Notes under the pieces: model-generated | What the model saw: the letters and a program-made list of their open reading frames with translations, nothing else | Told to the model about the DNA's origin: nothing | Database searches by the model: none | Shown here: in pieces, positions 673 through 6,908 of the stretch | Layout of the letters: every line of letters starts with the position of its first letter | Position numbering within the stretch: position 1 is the stretch's first letter | Source of the DNA: JBHIBR01 sp046759145 [NCBI: Nitrospinota bacterium] | GTDB taxonomy: Bacteria > UBA8248 | Assembly: GCA_046759145.1 (NCBI GenBank) | Contig: JBHIBR010000098.1 | Span: forward strand, 1 to 6,908 | Direction: 5' to 3' | DNA: 6,908 bases | Program-made: the position numbers and the translations under genes

Positions 673-3195
673 TTGGCTGACACCCTTCTGATCGTCTTCT
701 TTCCTTTCCTGGCCGCGGCCCTGATGCCCCTTGTGGAGCGGCTCCACAGGCAGGCCATCGCCTTCTACGCCCTGATCGCCCCCCTCCTCTGCCTCCTGAG
801 CCTCATCCGCCTCTACGGCCGATGGTCGCCCCAGGCGGGGCGGTTGGGGGGGACGTTGCGCTATTCCCTCCCGTGGGTGGTCCCAGGGCCGCTGCCCGTC
901 CAGCTCTCCTTCCTGGTGGACGGCCTGAGCCTGATGTGGGGCTTCCTGGTGGCGGGGATGGGCCTCCTCATCGTCCTCTACTCCCACTGGTACATGGCCC
1001 CCGGCCACCGGGCCGGTGCGGAATCCCCAACTCCGTCGGAGCCCCCGCTCGAGAGCGGGGCTCAACTGAGCGGGCTCCCCGCTCGGGGCCGCGTGGCCCC
1101 CGAGGAAGCCCTGGGCCGCTTCTACGGCTGGCTGCTAGCCTTCATGGGCTCGATGCTGGGCGTGGTGCTCGCCGACAACCTGGTGAGCCTCTTCGTCTTC
1201 TGGGAGCTCACGAGCCTCACCTCCTTCTTCCTCATCGGCTTCTGGTCCGAGCGGGAGGCTTCGAACTACGGCGCCACCAAGGCGGTCTTGATCACGGGCG
1301 GTGGAGGGTTGGCCCTGCTGGGCGGGTTCATCCTCCTGAACCAGGGGACGGGGAGCTGGGAGCTCTCGGAGCTGTTGGCCCACCCCCGGCCGGAGGCGGT
1401 GACGCCCTGGGTGTTCGCCCTGATCCTCCTGGGCGCCGCCACCAAGAGCGCCCAGCTCCCCTTCCACATCTGGCTCCCGAACGCCATGGAGGCGCCCACC
1501 CCCGTGAGCGCCTTCCTCCACTCGGCCACCATGGTGAAGGCGGGGATATACCTCCTCGCCCGCTTCTACCCCCTGATGGGTGGGCACCCCTGGTGGGGCT
1601 ATGCGGTCCCGGCACTGGGGATGGCCACCATGATCGCGGGGGGGCTCCTGGCGCTGCGCGCCCACGACCTGAAGGCCATCCTGGCCTACAGCACGGTGAG
1701 CCAGCTGGGCCTCATCGTGACCTTCCTGGGCTGGGGGGGCGAGGCGGCCGTCCTCGGAGGGACGCTCCACCTCTTGAACCACGCCGCCGCCAAGGCGGGC
1801 CTCTTCATGTTGGTGGGCATCGTGGAGCACGAGACGGGGACGCGCGACGTGCGAGAGCTCGGGGGCCTGCGAAAGTCCATGCCCAGGACCCACCTCCTGG
1901 CCTTAGTGCTGGCGGCATCCCTCACGGGCATCCCTCCCCTGGGGGGGTTCCTGACCAAGGAGATGCTCTATGAGTCGAGCCTCCACACGGGGGGCGCCTG
2001 GCCTTACTGGACCCTCCTCGCGGGGTTCCTGACGGCCCTCTACCACTTGCGGCTGGTGGGCGTCCCCTTCTGGGAAGACAGGGGCGGGCGCCCACCGAAA
2101 CACCCCCACGACCCACCCCGGGGGATGCTGCTCGCGCCCGCAGCTCTTGCGCTGCTGGCCATCCTGTTCGGCATTGCGCCCGGCCTCATCGAGGGGAGCA
2201 TCGTCGAGCCCGCGGCGAGCGCTACCATGGGGTGGGGCCGGCCAGTGGAGGCGGACCTCGCCCTGTGGCACGGCTTCAACCTCCCGCTCCTGATGAGCGC
2301 CCTCACCCTCGCCCTGGGCGGTGCGGTCTACCTCCGCCTGGCGGCGGTGGAGGGAGCCGTGGGTGGTGCCGCCCGCGCCTGGGGGCGGGGACCCACCTTC
2401 AACCGCATCTACGACGGGACCATCCGCCTCGCGGTGCGCTACAGTTGGCCCTCCCTGCTCCTGGTCCAGCACGGTTTCCTGCGCCGCTACCTGGCATGGA
2501 TGATCCTGGCCTTCCTGGTGCTCGTGGGGGTGATGGGGACACAGCTCGGCTGGCGGCTGGGGAGCCTGCCCGGCCCCCTCCGGGTGGGCTTCCTGCCCGC
2601 GGTCGTCTGCGTCCTCCTGTGGGGGGCGGCCTTCGCCACCGCCCTTTTCCGCCACCGCCTCTCGGCCATCCTGGCCCTGGGGCTCACGGGCTACCTGACG
2701 GCGGGCCTCTACCTTCTGCTCAAGGCGCCCGACCTGGCCCTCACCCAGATCATGATCGAATCGATGACCGTCATCCTCTTCCTGCTGGTCTTCTGGTTCC
2801 TCCCCGAGCTCCACCCCGCCCCCAACTCCACCCTCCGGAGAGCCCGGGACTGGGCAGTAGCGGGGGCCATGGGCGCGACGGTGACGGCCCTCACCGCGCT
2901 GGCCATGAACACGCGACACCTGGGCCTGGGCACCGTCGCCGACTACTTCATGCAGACCAGCTACCGCCTCGCCGGCTTCAAGAACGTGGTCAACGCCGTC
3001 ATCGTGGACTACCGGGGCTACGACACCCTGGGGGAGATCACCGTGCTGGCCGTGGCGGGCGTGGCCATCTACGCCCTGATGCGGCTTGCGGGGGGTACCC
3101 CAGCGCGCCCGCGCTCCGGGGACCCCAGGCGACCTGTCGCCTGGGGAGCCCCGCGCGCGGGGGGCCCCGCGGGGAGGCGACCGTGCGCTCACTGA
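673..3195 (+). CDS. mrpA: Mrp Na+/H+ antiporter subunit A
   Basis: This is the large subunit of the Mrp complex, a polytopic inner-membrane protein of 840 aa related to NuoL. An antiporter core with Proton_antipo_N and M type segments spans roughly residues 60-500. It includes the conserved Glu178 in FVFWELTS, Lys258 in TKSAQLPFH, His283 and Lys289 in FLHSATMVKAG, and Lys374. The C-terminal part carries the MbhD/DUF4040-like segment (Asp687, Glu696 in TQIMIESMT) and the MbhE-like segment (DYRGYDTLGE, Glu788). The TTG start at 673 is chosen because an in-frame stop lies at 664-666 and the first membrane helix would be lost with the next ATG (724). GAGGG (665-669) precedes it at a short spacing. 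Two parts look foreign to the family: an extra loop at about residues 114-147 and an Arg-rich tail at 807-840, both encoded by hairpin-rich DNA. Without them the length is about the usual 770-800. It overlaps mrpB by 13 nt. The family is certain; the start is less so. Confidence 0.96.
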   Translation: MADTLLIVFFPFLAAALMPLVERLHRQAIAFYALIAPLLCLLSLIRLYGRWSPQAGRLGGTLRYSLPWVVPGPLPVQLSFLVDGLSLMWGFLVAGMGLLIVLYSHWYMAPGHRAGAESPTPSEPPLESGAQLSGLPARGRVAPEEALGRFYGWLLAFMGSMLGVVLADNLVSLFVFWELTSLTSFFLIGFWSEREASNYGATKAVLITGGGGLALLGGFILLNQGTGSWELSELLAHPRPEAVTPWVFALILLGAATKSAQLPFHIWLPNAMEAPTPVSAFLHSATMVKAGIYLLARFYPLMGGHPWWGYAVPALGMATMIAGGLLALRAHDLKAILAYSTVSQLGLIVTFLGWGGEAAVLGGTLHLLNHAAAKAGLFMLVGIVEHETGTRDVRELGGLRKSMPRTHLLALVLAASLTGIPPLGGFLTKEMLYESSLHTGGAWPYWTLLAGFLTALYHLRLVGVPFWEDRGGRPPKHPHDPPRGMLLAPAALALLAILFGIAPGLIEGSIVEPAASATMGWGRPVEADLALWHGFNLPLLMSALTLALGGAVYLRLAAVEGAVGGAARAWGRGPTFNRIYDGTIRLAVRYSWPSLLLVQHGFLRRYLAWMILAFLVLVGVMGTQLGWRLGSLPGPLRVGFLPAVVCVLLWGAAFATALFRHRLSAILALGLTGYLTAGLYLLLKAPDLALTQIMIESMTVILFLLVFWFLPELHPAPNSTLRRARDWAVAGAMGATVTALTALAMNTRHLGLGTVADYFMQTSYRLAGFKNVVNAVIVDYRGYDTLGEITVLAVAGVAIYALMRLAGGTPARPRSGDPRRPVAWGAPRAGGPAGRRPCAH
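1031..1084. repeat. Hairpin cluster inside mrpA (extra loop)
   Basis: Consecutive inverted repeats fill this stretch. CTCC/GGAG lies at 1031-1041. CCCCGCTC (1043-1050) faces GAGCGGGG (1053-1060), extendable to 11-bp arms with one bulged base. CTCA/TGAG lies at 1061-1070, and GAGCGGG (1068-1074) faces CCCGCTC (1078-1084). It lies in frame and encodes a Pro/Ser/Gly/Glu-rich loop between YM (residues 107-108) and RFYGW (149-153), where Mrp proteins normally have only a short connector. This looks like a small palindromic element tolerated in a solvent loop. The palindromes are seen; the insertion is inferred. Confidence 0.55.
3092..3174. repeat. Compound palindromic element at mrpA 3' end and mrpB start
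   Basis: An 83-bp run of back-to-back palindromes. GGGGTACCCC spans 3092-3101. AGCGCG/CGCGCT spans 3102-3115. CCCCAGGCGAC (3123-3133) faces GTCGCCTGGGG (3136-3146) with a 2-nt centre. CCCCGCGCGCGGGG spans 3149-3162 and CCCCGCGGGG spans 3165-3174. The outer parts also pair across the centre with small bulges (3117-3121 with 3149-3153, 3108-3114 with 3155-3161), so the whole is one imperfect long inverted repeat resembling a REP or miniature element. It encodes nearly all of the extra MrpA tail and ends inside the mrpB ribosome binding site. Confidence 0.65.
3171..3177 (+). promoter_or_regulatory. mrpB ribosome binding site embedded in a palindrome
   Basis: GGGGAGG lies 5 nt before the GTG start of mrpB and decides that start. 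Its first four bases are the right arm of the CCCCGCGGGG palindrome (3165-3174), so mRNA folding could mask it. Translation of mrpA, which runs through to 3195, could open it. The masking is inferred. Confidence 0.5.
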
Positions 3196-3593
3196 TCTTC
3201 CAGACGGTGGCGCCCATCGCGCTCCACCTCATCCTGGTTTTCTCCGCCTTCCTCCTCTTCATGGGCCACAACCAACCCGGCGGGGGTTTCATCGCGGGGC
3301 TCATGACCTCGGTGGGGCTCATCCTCCAGTTCATGGCCTTCGGCCGGCGCTACGGCTTGGAGCGCTTCCCCTGGCCCTTCGACCGGGTCTACCCGCTCGG
3401 GCTGGCGGTCGCCGGAGGGGTGGGGCTCGCCGGCCTCGCCTTCGGGGCGTTCCTCAAGTCGCGCCAGTTCCACCTGACCCTCCCCCTCCTGGGCGGGGTG
3501 GAGGTGTTGACGGCTTTCTTGTTCGACGTGGGGGTGTACTTCGTGGTTGTCGGGATGACCATGGCCGTCCTCCTCCTCTTGAGCGAGCGATGA
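3183..3593 (+). CDS. mrpB: Mrp Na+/H+ antiporter subunit B
   Basis: This 136-aa membrane protein of the MnhB/MrpB family has about four transmembrane segments and the family hallmark GHNQPGGGF at residues 28-36, just after the first helix. MrpB is a small integral subunit required for assembly and Na+/H+ exchange by the Mrp complex. The GTG start at 3183 is supported by GGGGAGG 5 nt upstream and by VRSLIFQTVAP matching the usual MrpB N-terminus. The open frame extends far upstream through mrpA, but that part is an out-of-frame shadow. The start lies 13 nt inside the end of mrpA, so translation is probably coupled. The stop overlaps an ATG that opens a 16-codon mini-ORF in the gap before mrpC. 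Length and motifs are normal. Confidence 0.95.
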   Translation: MRSLIFQTVAPIALHLILVFSAFLLFMGHNQPGGGFIAGLMTSVGLILQFMAFGRRYGLERFPWPFDRVYPLGLAVAGGVGLAGLAFGAFLKSRQFHLTLPLLGGVEVLTAFLFDVGVYFVVVGMTMAVLLLLSER

Positions 3594-3600
3594 AGCCCGG

Positions 3601-3630
3601 CCGGTCCACCGAAAGTCGGTCCACCGAAAG
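3601..3630. repeat. Two tandem 15-bp units in the mrpB-mrpC gap
   Basis: CCGGTCCACCGAAAG (3601-3615) is followed directly by TCGGTCCACCGAAAG (3616-3630); 14 of 15 bases agree. The core TCGGT-CC-ACCGA is a small inverted repeat. The same unit occurs inverted and doubled at 6713-6742, with 27 of 30 bases complementary to this pair. The last two bases of the second unit run into the likely mrpC ribosome binding site AGAGGGG (3629-3635). Confidence 0.8.
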
Positions 3631-3644
3631 AGGGGCGTGAGGCC

Positions 3645-3992
3645 GTGAGCTGGCTGGTATCCATCACGGTGGGGGTGCTCTTCACGACGGGGGTGTACCT
3701 CATCCTCCAGCGCAAGCTCCTCCAGCTCATCCTGGGGCTCTCGCTCCTGAGCCACGCGGCCAACCTCCTCATCGTCGCCTCGGGCTGGGTGCGCGACGGC
3801 TTCGCCCCCATCGTCCCTCCCACCGCCAGCGTGGACCCGACCCTCTACGTGGATCCCCTCCCCCAGGCCATGGTGCTCACGGCCATCGTCATCGGCTTCG
3901 GCGTCACGGCCTTCCTGCTCGTCCTGGCCGTGCAGGCGTACCGGCAGTTCGGCACGGACGACCTGGACCAGATGCGGAGGTCCCGGGGATGA
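3645..3992 (+). CDS. mrpC: Mrp Na+/H+ antiporter subunit C
   Basis: A 115-aa NuoK-like subunit with three predicted transmembrane helices. It shows the family signatures GLSLLSHAANLL in helix 2 and DPLPQAMVLTAIVIGFG leading into helix 3. In the Mrp complex MrpC sits between the MrpA and MrpD modules and contributes to the ion path, as known for the family. The GTG start at 3645 is chosen because an in-frame TGA lies at 3636-3640 in the alternative readings and MSWLVSITVGV fits the family N-terminus. AGAGGGG (3629-3635) gives a 9-nt spacing, and a weaker GAGG lies closer. It follows the only sizeable gap in the operon (51 nt), which is largely filled by the tandem 15-bp repeat. The stop overlaps the mrpD start as ATGA. 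Confidence 0.95.
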   Translation: MSWLVSITVGVLFTTGVYLILQRKLLQLILGLSLLSHAANLLIVASGWVRDGFAPIVPPTASVDPTLYVDPLPQAMVLTAIVIGFGVTAFLLVLAVQAYRQFGTDDLDQMRRSRG

Positions 3993-5467
3993 GCGCCGTG
4001 GTGGTGCTCCCCGTGGTGGGCCCGCTGGGGGTGGCCATCGCCCTGCTGCTGCTGAGGCGCTCCCTGCGGCTGCAGCAGGCGGCGAGCCTCGGGGCGATGG
4101 TGGCCTACGTCGCCCTCGCCGCCCTCCTCCTCTCCCACACGGGCCGGGGGGCCATCTCCGTCCACAGGATGGGACTCTGGCCCTTCCCCTACGGGATCAT
4201 CCTGGTGGCGGACGCCCTCTCCTCCACCATGCTGCTGCTGGCGGCCGTGGTGGTGGGGGCCTGCACCGTCTTCGCGTTCCACTACCTGGAGGAGTCCATG
4301 CGGCGGGAGGTGTTCTTCCCCCTGGTCCACTTCCTCCTGATGGGCATCAACGGCGCCTTCCTCACGGGCGACATCTTCAACCTCTTCGTCTTCTTCGAGG
4401 TGTTGCTGATATCGGCCTACGCGCTGCTCTCCTTCTACGGGAGCCTGGAGCAGTTGGAGATGGCCTTCAAGTACGTGGCCATCAACCTCATCGGCTCCAC
4501 CCTCTTCCTCCTGGGGGTGGCCCTCCTCTACGCCCAGGTGGGGACGGTGAACATGGCCGACCTCTCGGAGAAGGTGGCCCGGCTGGGACCCCGGCCCCTG
4601 CTGGTGGTGACGGCCCTCATCTTCCTCATGGTCTTCAGCATCAAGGCGGCCATCTTCCCGATGCAGATCTGGCTGCCCTCGGCCCACTCCATCTCGCCCA
4701 CCCCCATCGCCGCGATCCTGGCGGGGATCATGGTCAAGGTGGGCATCTACGCCATCCTCCGCTGCGCCACCCTCATCTTCCCGGGCCCCGTCCGCCAACT
4801 CGCCCCCCTCCTCTTGCTCCTGGCGGTCATCACCATCGCCTTCGGCGCCATAGGGGTGCTCCCCCAGCGGAACCTCAAGCGGGTGCTGGCTTACTCCACC
4901 ATCAACCAGCTGGGATACATCCTCTTCGGGCTCTCCCTCCTCACCCCGGCGGGGGTGAGCGCGGCGCTCTTCGCCCTCATCAACCACGCCTTCATCAAGA
5001 GCTCCCTCCTCCTGGGAGCGGGCCTCACCCACGTGCTCACGGGCTCGGGGGAGCTGGACGAGATGGGCGGCCTCCAGGAGAGGGCGCCCGCGGCCTCCCT
5101 CCTGCTCTTGCTCGGGTTCCTGGCGCTGGCGGGCTTTCCCCCCATGAACGGCTTTTTCTCCAAACTCTTCCTGATCGCGGCGGGCTTCGGCGCGGGGGCC
5201 TACGTCGCCACGAGCCTCGCCCTGGGGCTCGGGCTGGTGACTCTCTACTACTGCTTCGTCACCTGGCAGCGCATCGCCTGGGGAACTCCGGTCGAGACCC
5301 GGCGGGCGCCGCTTGGGGTTTACCTGCCCGTGGCCTTCCTGGTTTCCTTCACCGTCCTCTTCAGCCTGGGCGCGGGGCCGCTCGCGGGGTTCACCGACCG
5401 GCTGGCGGCGGAGGTGCTGGAGCCCGCCCTTTACGTGGCGGCCGTCAAGGGGGCGGTGGGCCCCTGA
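3989..5467 (+). CDS. mrpD: Mrp Na+/H+ antiporter subunit D
   Basis: A 492-aa polytopic antiporter-like subunit of the NuoM/NuoN type, with the Proton_antipo_M core at about residues 125-420. Key residues are intact: Glu137 in FVFFEVLL, Lys219 in FSIKAAIFP, Lys250 in MVKVG and Lys337 in NHAFIKSSLL. Glu137 and Lys219 fall at the same numbers as the functionally important residues described for Bacillus MrpD, so this copy appears active. MrpD forms the second proton channel next to MrpA. The ATG start overlaps the mrpC stop as ATGA, and GGAGG (3976-3980) lies 8 nt upstream. The length is standard and no insertion is seen, in contrast to mrpA. A long antisense open frame over this gene is a composition artefact. 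Confidence 0.97.
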   Translation: MSAVVVLPVVGPLGVAIALLLLRRSLRLQQAASLGAMVAYVALAALLLSHTGRGAISVHRMGLWPFPYGIILVADALSSTMLLLAAVVVGACTVFAFHYLEESMRREVFFPLVHFLLMGINGAFLTGDIFNLFVFFEVLLISAYALLSFYGSLEQLEMAFKYVAINLIGSTLFLLGVALLYAQVGTVNMADLSEKVARLGPRPLLVVTALIFLMVFSIKAAIFPMQIWLPSAHSISPTPIAAILAGIMVKVGIYAILRCATLIFPGPVRQLAPLLLLLAVITIAFGAIGVLPQRNLKRVLAYSTINQLGYILFGLSLLTPAGVSAALFALINHAFIKSSLLLGAGLTHVLTGSGELDEMGGLQERAPAASLLLLLGFLALAGFPPMNGFFSKLFLIAAGFGAGAYVATSLALGLGLVTLYYCFVTWQRIAWGTPVETRRAPLGVYLPVAFLVSFTVLFSLGAGPLAGFTDRLAAEVLEPALYVAAVKGAVGP

Positions 5468-5480
5468 GGGAGGAAAACCG

Positions 5481-5957
5481 ATGCTCCTCGCCCTCACCGC
5501 CCTGATCCTCGCCCTCATCTGGGGCTTCCTCCGGGGGGGCGAGTTCGGCCCCGCGGATTTCTTCGCGGGGCTCCTGGTGGCCCTCGTGGTGCTGGCCGCG
5601 CTGCGTCGCACTTACGGTGAGCGGGTCTTCTTCGTCCGACTGCACCACGTCGCGGTCTACATCCCCCGTTTCCTGTGGCAGATGGTGTTGGCCAACCTCT
5701 GGGTGGCCCGGCTCGCCCTCCGGCCGCGGCTCTCGCTGCGCCCGGGCATCGTGGCTTTTCCCACGCGCGCCCGCAGCGACGTGGGCATCACCACCCTGGC
5801 CAACTCCATCACCCTCACCCCCGGCACCATGAGCGTGGACGTGAGCGAGGACCGCTCCACCATCTTCGTCCACACCATTGACATCGAGGACCCCGAGGGG
5901 GTGCGGGAGGGCATCCGGCGGGGGCTCGAGGACTACAGCACGCGGGCGGCGCCATGA
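5481..5957 (+). CDS. mrpE: Mrp Na+/H+ antiporter subunit E
   Basis: A 158-aa MnhE-family subunit with two or three N-terminal membrane helices (about residues 1-45 and 55-80). A cytoplasmic domain follows with the typical TLANSITLTPGTMSVDV motif (about residues 107-123) and a VHTIDIEDPEGVREGI-like end. MrpE supports assembly of the complex and is often less essential than the others. The ATG at 5481 has a strong site, GGGAGG (5468-5473), 7 nt upstream, and lies 13 nt after the mrpD stop. The frame is open further upstream but only as a shadow of mrpD. The stop overlaps the mrpF start as ATGA. Length and motifs are normal. Confidence 0.95.
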   Translation: MLLALTALILALIWGFLRGGEFGPADFFAGLLVALVVLAALRRTYGERVFFVRLHHVAVYIPRFLWQMVLANLWVARLALRPRLSLRPGIVAFPTRARSDVGITTLANSITLTPGTMSVDVSEDRSTIFVHTIDIEDPEGVREGIRRGLEDYSTRAAP

Positions 5958-6223
5958 TCGGAGTGCTGACCGAGGCGATCATCGCCGTCGTGGGGGCCTC
6001 CATGGCCTTGTCCTTCTACCGCCTCGTGCGGGGGCCCTCCATCCCCGACCGGGTGGTGGGCGCCGACGCCGTGGTCACGAACCTCATGGGGCTCATCGTG
6101 CTCTTCACCATCGAGACTTCCTATCCGTTCTTCTTTGTAGCAGTCCTGGTGCTCGCCATCCTGGGGTTCGTGGGCACGGTGGCGTACGCGAAGTTCATCG
6201 AGAGGGGGAGCATCATTGAGTGA
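5954..6223 (+). CDS. mrpF: Mrp Na+/H+ antiporter subunit F
   Basis: An 89-aa MnhF-family membrane protein with three helices. The signature PSIPDRVVGADAV places Asp32 and Asp38 between helix 1 and helix 2. The first Asp is highly conserved in MrpF and linked to Na+ transport in the family. The ATG start overlaps the mrpE stop as ATGA with no good ribosome binding site, so translation is likely by coupling. The end overlaps mrpG by 8 nt. Length and sequence are typical. Confidence 0.95.
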   Translation: MIGVLTEAIIAVVGASMALSFYRLVRGPSIPDRVVGADAVVTNLMGLIVLFTIETSYPFFFVAVLVLAILGFVGTVAYAKFIERGSIIE

Positions 6224-6632
6224 GATCCTGACGGCCCTCGGCCTCCTGGTGGGGGGTTTCTTCATGCTGGTGAGCGGCATCGGCCTCGTGCGCTTCCCCG
6301 ACGTCTACTGCCGCCTCCACGCCCCCACCAAGGCGCAGACGCTGGGGATGATCGGCCTCCTCACCGCCGCCATCTTCCACTTCGAGAGAGCCGACGTGAC
6401 GGCCCAGGCCGTCCTGGTCATCCTCTTCCTCTTCCTGACCGTCCCCACCGGGGCGCACCTCATCGCGCGGGCGGCCTACCGCTCGGGGGTGGGCCTCTGT
6501 GAGGAGACGATCGTGGACGACTACGGGCCGTACGTCCGCGAGGGGTCCGAGGGCGGAGCCGGCCTCCAGGGTCCGGGAAGGGGTGCCGCGGGCGGAGAGG
6601 CACCCTCTCCTCCCTCTCCCCCGGAGCCTTGA
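6216..6632 (+). CDS. mrpG: Mrp Na+/H+ antiporter subunit G with extra C-terminal tail
   Basis: A 138-aa MnhG/PhaG-family membrane subunit. Three helices are visible, with the signature GIGLVRFPDVYCRLHAPTKA (residues 21-40) and LTVPTGAHLIARAAYRSG before the C-terminus. It completes the Mrp complex. The TTG start at 6216 is supported by GGGGGAG (6204-6210), 5 nt upstream, and by SEILTALGLLVGGFF matching family N-termini; it overlaps mrpF by 8 nt. The conserved part ends near residue 108. The last 30 or so residues are Gly/Pro/Ser-rich low complexity without family resemblance, and their DNA holds overlapping hairpins. The stop shares bases with the TTG of the next gene. Family certain; the tail may be non-functional. 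Confidence 0.95.
   Translation: MSEILTALGLLVGGFFMLVSGIGLVRFPDVYCRLHAPTKAQTLGMIGLLTAAIFHFERADVTAQAVLVILFLFLTVPTGAHLIARAAYRSGVGLCEETIVDDYGPYVREGSEGGAGLQGPGRGAAGGEAPSPPSPPEP
6581..6610 (+). promoter_or_regulatory. Two mutually exclusive hairpins at the mrpG end
   Basis: GGGTGCC (6581-6587) can pair with GGCACCC (6599-6605). Alternatively GGAGAGG (6594-6600) can pair with CCTCTCC (6604-6610) around a 3-nt loop. The arms share bases, so only one can form. A pyrimidine-rich tract (6603-6622) follows just before the next start codon. The pairing is seen; a switch or attenuation role is speculative. Confidence 0.3.
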
Positions 6633-6908
6633 GCGCCCCCCAGCCCGGGTCGGGCCGAGCGCGCTCTCTGTACCTTCGACGGGAGGGTCTCCGCCTCCAC
6701 GCCCTGGACTACCGTTCGGTGGACCGACGTTCGGTGGACCGAGGCGGGGAGGGCCTCCCGCCCCTCCTCTTCCTGCACGGGAGCGGCGCCCACGCGCGCT
6801 GGTGGGACCACATCGCGCCCCGCTTCTCGGACCTCTTCCGGGCGGTCGCCCTGGACCTCCGGGGCCACGGCGAGAGCGAGCGGTCGAAGGACTACAGCCT
6901 CGGGGCCT
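6629..6908 (+). CDS. Alpha/beta hydrolase fold protein, 3' end outside window
   Basis: The first 93 residues of an alpha/beta hydrolase are visible. After strand-like LYLRREGLRLHALDY comes PPLLFLHGSG (His50-Gly53, the HG motif that shapes the oxyanion hole), then WWDHIAPRF and ALDLRGHGES (residues 74-83), a typical early-fold signature. The nucleophile Ser and the rest of the catalytic triad would lie beyond the edge, so substrate and reaction cannot be stated. The proposed TTG start shares four bases with the mrpG stop (TTGA), with GGAG (6623-6626) very close upstream; this is the only sensible start before the conserved part. Ten residues, RSVDR twice (29-38), come from a perfect tandem 15-bp repeat and interrupt the usual short link between the first strand and the GGEG turn. 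Its place behind mrpG suggests co-transcription but no known functional link. Confidence 0.85.
   Translation, partial: MSAPQPGSGRARSLYLRREGLRLHALDYRSVDRRSVDRGGEGLPPLLFLHGSGAHARWWDHIAPRFSDLFRAVALDLRGHGESERSKDYSLGA
6713..6742. repeat. Two perfect tandem 15-bp units inside the hydrolase gene
   Basis: CGTTCGGTGGACCGA occurs at 6713-6727 and again, identical, at 6728-6742. It is in codon register and encodes RSVDR twice. The reverse complement of the unit, TCGGTCCACCGAACG, differs at one base from the 3616-3630 unit in the mrpB-mrpC gap. This supports a dispersed repeat family present in both orientations. Confidence 0.8.

Follow-up and report, generated by a model that had tools for sequence, protein, structure and literature searches.

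The RPEs of Rickettsia are 105-146 bp long, with long stem-loops and terminal inverted repeats, and in the available part of their description they sit both between genes and in frame within genes for conserved proteins; a guanylate kinase bearing one is both translated and active (PMC2229807). Two short ones, RPE-4 and RPE-6, are equivalent to CGTC-tagged REPs, and REPs in general are given, in the portion of that account at hand, as 20-40 bp long with a tag at one end, the stems measuring 6-13 bp in the GTAG type and 8-9 bp in the CGTC type, for which TGTC and CCTC are tag variants (PMC3733652). The same portion reports that more than half of intragenic REP inserts are dimers or groups, encoding 20-30 amino acids, and that CGTC dimers are mostly head-to-head, head-to-tail dimers being negligible (PMC3733652). 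MITEs such as RUP, NEMIS/Correia, ERIC and YPAL are small non-autonomous repeats of about 100-200 bp that sometimes form in-frame gene fusions, most of them having terminal inverted repeats and target duplications, according to the available part of the source (PMC2229807). Palindromes within genes are also known from nematomorph mitochondria, again from an account available in part (PMC6649704).

The stretch of DNA considered here (6,908 nucleotides, “the window” below; GC content 69.5%) is, judged from its sequence, an mrp Na+/H+ antiporter operon with a downstream alpha/beta hydrolase gene. An LTXXQ-family protein is encoded at the left edge, and the order of the remaining genes, all on the plus strand, is mrpA, B, C, D, E, F, G and then the start of the hydrolase gene. 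Domain matches identify mrpA (673-3195; MnhA-like, with MbhD and MbhE domains) and mrpB (3183-3593; 3186-3593 was scanned, the GTG at 3183 being taken from a reading of the sequence); mrpC (3645-3992), mrpD (3989-5467), and mrpE, mrpF and mrpG (together 5481-6632) follow, and the hydrolase gene (6629-6907; Pfam Abhydrolase_1, 2.9e-07) extends past the end of the window.

Two doubled copies of a 15-bp unit are found in this cluster. Copy A (3601-3630, plus strand), in the gap between mrpB and mrpC, is made of two head-to-tail units, CCGGTCCACCGAAAG and TCGGTCCACCGAAAG; copy B (6713-6742, minus strand), inside the hydrolase gene, is made of two identical units, TCGGTCCACCGAACG twice over. Searched as YCGGTCCACCGAAMG, the unit has exact matches at 3601-3615 and 3616-3630 on the plus strand and at 6713-6727 and 6728-6742 on the minus strand, which confirms the original prediction of a tandem pair and an inverted pair agreeing at 27 of 30 positions (the other three differ). 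The units within a pair are direct copies of each other, identical at 15 of 15 bases in copy B and at 14 of 15 in copy A. Each consists of a 5-2-5 palindrome, TCGGT-CC-ACCGA, and three further bases, AMG (A, then A or C, then G). Position 14 of the unit varies between the loci and is the same within each pair (A,A at one locus, C,C at the other): a single variable position, uniform within each pair, fits either doubling in place or homogenisation.

The pairs had been judged too similar to be expected by chance, and the counts bear this out. Matches with up to three mismatches number six in the window against 1.14 expected, a count reached in none of 200 shuffles; two of the six, at 621 and 5697 and with three mismatches each, lie outside both dimers. 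Tandem 15-mers with at most one mismatch occur in two places; 200 dinucleotide shuffles had 0.015 on average and never more than 1. When one mismatch is allowed, the pairs themselves form the longest inverted match of the window, 27 nt (mean 17.1 and maximum 25 in 100 shuffles). The dimers agree in unit number (exactly two) and unit phase, are oppositely oriented, and have flanks that share no similarity. Other parts of the original prediction need narrowing. The contexts, called unrelated, do differ as an intergenic gap and a hydrolase gene, but both belong to one co-directional gene cluster. “Dispersed, always doubled” describes two sites, doubled in both cases, with nothing shown beyond them. 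The unit is indeed free of stop codons in all six frames, but as an argument that it can sit within genes this is weak, since of 20,000 random 15-mers with the same composition as the window 59% are likewise stop-free in six frames.

The two surroundings can each be compared with relatives. From the mrpB stop at 3593 to the mrpC start at 3645 there is a gap of 51 nt, which holds copy A; in relatives, the corresponding distance ranges from -13 to +3 nt in all 10 regions where both genes were matched. Twelve regions had been fetched, L098 and L099 being without an mrpB match, and the start codon nearest the aligned start was used; L106 and L107 are nearly duplicates of each other in the alignments. 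The 30 bp of copy A account for most, not all, of the gap excess.

In the hydrolase reading frame, copy B encodes RSVDRRSVDR (residues 29-38), flanked by LHALDY and GGEG. A first alignment used four plasmid-borne relatives (4 of 16 records), and the ten residues were absent from 4/4 of them; it included the insert-free fragment as a row, however, which biases towards such a result. A larger set was made up of 25 of 44 matches from one phylum plus four plasmid loci, 28 of these 29 being matched. Without the ten residues, pairwise scores rose for 17 of the 28, were equal for 2 and fell for 9; when ten-residue deletions were slid along the fragment (n=61), residues 29-38 gave the largest mean pairwise gain, +5.1. 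MAFFT, run with the 28 homologues, filled the ten inserted columns with residues from 27 of the 28 instead of opening a gap. A homologue profile built from 27 sequences (L130, a truncated row, was dropped) scored the fragment at 85.2 bits with residues 29-38 and at 93.3 without them. Among 68 slid ten-residue deletions scored against this profile, the top four start at residues 26-29 (93.3-93.7 bits) and all overlap copy B, the deletion of 29-38 itself ranking fourth; the insert-free fragment aligns through the profile motif vdgvrvhvrewG, where the full fragment misaligns. On this sequence comparison it is well supported, not proven, that copy B is an in-frame insertion adding ten amino acids. 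From the fold family, its position would be a surface loop. The expectation that the repeat tolerates insertion into coding DNA is upheld in that copy B is most likely an in-frame insertion, on the profile scores more than on the mixed pairwise ones. Insertion as the origin of the copies has partial support, because copy B behaves as an in-frame insertion and the gap holding copy A is much shorter in relatives.

A single unit, with its two-base loop, is unlikely to form a stable hairpin. The isolated single-strand dimer is predicted to form one hairpin, a fold that needs both units: the outer halves (the start of unit one and the end of unit two) pair with each other, and the inner halves close around a three-base loop, giving two 5-bp stems (the outer stem of copy A has 4 bp, not 5), a CC/CC internal loop and a 3-nt end loop. 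The hairpin has a z of -3.06 for copy A and of -1.65 for copy B, the latter not unusual (13 of 200 shuffles as good). Since a true inverted repeat would set GG against CC, the direct repeat is probably the conserved feature and the hairpin its by-product. Isolated RNA of the dimers folds with an energy of -11 to -12.1 kcal/mol. Within their native RNA surroundings (z -1.12 and -0.03), structures other than the two hairpins have the lowest energy, and a function as an RNA hairpin, considered as a candidate, is unsupported there because the hairpins are not preferred.

Set beside the available parts of the published descriptions, the repeat is like an RPE in being palindromic DNA found both between genes (copy A) and in frame in a gene for a conserved protein (copy B), and unlike one (105-146 bp, long stem-loop) in its 30 bp, its stems of 4-5 bp, its two direct units and the absence of a shared tag. 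The likeness to Rickettsia in the original prediction thus extends to in-gene palindromic insertion, common to both, but not to RPE size and stem or to CGTC REP features, as far as the accessible portions of those papers set them out. Rickettsia genomes are AT-rich, and a Rickettsia host is disfavoured by the window's GC content. Like the REPs in the portion available, the repeat is a short palindrome, doubled, with one copy within a gene; unlike them, it has a 15-bp unit with 5-bp arms around a 2-nt centre, where REP stems are given as 6-13 bp. No CGTC or GTAG tag is common to both copies: CGTC is confined to the place where the two units of copy B join (AACGTCGG), copy A having AAGTCGG there, and GTAG is present after copy B only. 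The dimer is head-to-tail in both copies, unlike the CGTC dimers of that account. From MITEs, in what is available of their description, it differs in its 30 bp and in that no target-site duplication is visible by eye in 20 bases on each side of either copy. Membership in the RPEs, REPs or MITEs was rejected on the features tested: size, stem, tag, dimer orientation and target duplication. The best reading, by analogy, is that the element may nevertheless work as they do. In-gene palindromic inserts are already described from Rickettsia and several REP- or MITE-bearing genomes, and against the available parts of those descriptions the present element would be a smaller, differently built kind; if so, even a palindrome as small as this can lengthen a conserved enzyme by a short peptide.

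Searches elsewhere were made with the dimer, the unit and the neighboring proteins. A relaxed dimer pattern, scanned over one genome per species (84,980 species, the stated size), gave 36 stretches, arrays or pairs, mostly of another period and from many unrelated organisms; the AAMG linker was found in none of the 36. Two of them are tandem arrays of the unit core with a 15-bp period, one in a deltaproteobacterial MAG (L001, about 7794-7834, CCGGTCCACCGATGC) and one in a Pirellula MAG (L004, about 7640-7700, CCCGGTCCACCGAAA); possibly these are proline-rich protein repeats. A search of two phyla that allowed up to three mismatches gave the dimer in 0 of 377 and 0 of 251 genomes. In viral contigs, three dimer patterns gave no match, and the single 15-mer gave 34 stretches of one unit each, with a neighboring unit in none of the 34. 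BLAST of copy B returned seven plasmid records at E 0.3-3 and ten phage records (E 4 among the eight matches listed), both at chance level, and Rfam gave no match at gathering scores. The mrpA palindrome was not found in viral contigs, where MrpD had one pattern match, not confirmed as a relative. Open literature searched by sequence yielded no title on a bacterial repeat and, searched by topic, named no such element among the matches listed.

Relatives of MrpD lie at about equal distance in all samples, with best identities of 37-41%. The best in 12 genomes is 37%; in the phylum of genome G001, 14 of 112 genomes have a match at 1e-70 (best 40%), in that of G006 3 of 61 at 1e-70 (best 40%), in that of G003 1 of 61 at 1e-90 (39%), and in that of G007 1 of 149 at 1e-95 (40%). 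Plasmids gave 398 records, all below 60%, with 41% in the top-listed record among the best 40 of the 398. The phylum samples were centred only on the phyla of loci found with the relaxed dimer pattern. Absence of the dimer elsewhere fits a lineage-restricted element or, equally, two isolated copies.

MrpA has an insert of its own. By alignment, 34 residues (1009-1110, plus strand) are inserted in frame and are absent from 11 of 11 relatives, one of which is three residues longer at this place (L098, a twelfth row, is a paralogue); the DNA is GC-rich, with several hairpins at about 1039-1100, and by inspection is unrelated to the 15-bp unit. When the seven mrp proteins were each compared with 10 to 12 relatives, window-specific runs of more than six residues were found only in mrpA, as adjacent runs of 24 and 9; runs of four to six residues are limited to one of five in mrpA (832-846) and one of six in mrpG (6567-6584). 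Toward its end, where the C-terminal tail of MrpA is not conserved and just before the mrpB overlap, the gene also contains a GC-rich inverted repeat with 26-nt arms (3108-3161, plus strand). Folding of the insert DNA (1020-1105) gave a z of -2.65, and of its RNA -1.94, with 12 of 159 tiles lower; for the tail palindrome the values are -3.01 (3090-3182) and -2.45, with 5 of 159 tiles lower. The 159 control tiles were of 86 nt, folded with RNA parameters, and the mrpA stretches had been chosen by eye. A simple scan for ungapped palindromes picked out 3108-3161 and 425-457 alone, missing the mrpA insert and both dimers. A coincidence of insertions with strong palindromes in the window was proposed and failed the tiling control; repeated uptake of palindromic DNA by the mrp operon is a suggestion only.

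By analogy, copies A and B are read here as an unusually built insertion of the REP/RPE kind, a head-to-tail dimer of a 15-bp unit. There is about an even chance that they represent a short, non-autonomous insertion element that is tolerated in gaps and loops and is copied either as a head-to-tail dimer or into that form. Under such a model, a 30-bp element of two direct 15-bp units would have entered the operon as two copies in opposite orientation, one into the intergenic gap and the other near the start of the hydrolase gene, where 30 bp would preserve the frame. A hairpin-handling activity of the host, or one acting in trans, would have copied it to new sites; candidates are templated repair and a transposase, whether of the REP/RAYT type, which accompanies REPs in GTAG-bearing genomes, or another. 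The element might persist because gaps and protein loops tolerate insertion; its mobility, copy number, enzyme, loop position and neutrality are all points that we infer. The model is favored by the two near-identical dimers in the same unit phase without shared flanks, by the in-frame insertion tests, the short mrpB-mrpC gap in relatives and the copy A hairpin, and by the rarity in mrp proteins of long window-specific stretches, confined to the hairpin-rich stretch of mrpA. It is disfavored by there being only two known copies, in one operon, by the remoteness of the Mrp relatives (about 40% identical in protein, with no close-relative empty site among them), by the filled MAFFT columns and a pairwise gain in only 17 of 28, by the lack of a visible target-site duplication, the ordinary fold of copy B and the preference of native RNA for other folds, by the unexceptional folding of the mrpA insert, and by the absence of a dimer with the AAMG linker from the collections searched. 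A broader version, offered tentatively and itself doubtful, is an undescribed ultra-short class (a 15-bp unit, obligately doubled head-to-tail) that would be multiplying through gene gaps and loops of a GC-rich uncultured lineage, alongside other in-gene palindrome families; if that is true, conserved proteins of the lineage hold many small palindrome-encoded inserts.

The main rival to an insertion element is local templated copying without mobility: replication slippage or hairpin-primed repair would double the unit in place, and one copy would reach a second site in the operon, with no element and no enzyme. Two copies only, 3.1 kb apart in one operon, and a base 14 that is alike in both units at each locus, as in-place doubling would give, are what it predicts; it is less at ease with two dimers that agree in phase and in having two units, no more and no fewer, yet lie in opposite orientation and in different surroundings, and the mrpA insert weakly hints at repeated insertion. 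On balance it is unlikely. Tandem palindromes also resemble dimer binding sites, and a tandem operator, or a site of RNA processing or stability common to the operon's genes, would suit the presence of both copies in one gene cluster and the folding energies of the isolated RNA. This is improbable, however: copy B is part of the coding sequence of an enzyme from a conserved family, and copy A lies between two operon genes, neither upstream of the first gene; the copies have opposite orientations; the hairpins are not the preferred RNA folds in native context; and relatives have no room for copy A. Because the proposed coincidence of insertions with strong palindromes failed the tiling control, the insertion element was lowered from slightly above even to its present standing and the undescribed class was lowered a little from an already tentative one, while local copying was raised somewhat and the regulatory site marginally. 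A tandem repeat at the protein level, as may hold for the unit core in unrelated genomes (several relaxed-pattern matches are tandem arrays, with a 15-bp period in L001 and L004), is very improbable here, with copy A lying after the stop of mrpB and before the start of mrpC, and copy B read as RSVDR in the gene frame, in the other orientation. Least credible of all is a coincidence of composition: high GC and a window rich in short inverted repeats would lend themselves to it, but no shuffle among 200 reached the unit count, tandem places number two against a mean of 0.015, and the 27-nt inverted match exceeds the maximum of 25 in 100 shuffles.

Among the stretches found with the relaxed pattern, a CGGTCCACCGA pair spanning 27 nt is conserved in L002, L005, L007, L009, L015, L018, L026 and L034, with Rhodococcus, Williamsia, Nocardia and a Pseudonocardiaceae genome as hosts and a similar sequence context; from that context it looks like one shared gene region, not the 30-bp element. 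In the window itself, the interval between the LTXXQ gene and mrpA contains, at 414-490, a series of short GC-rich repeats, both tandem and inverted.
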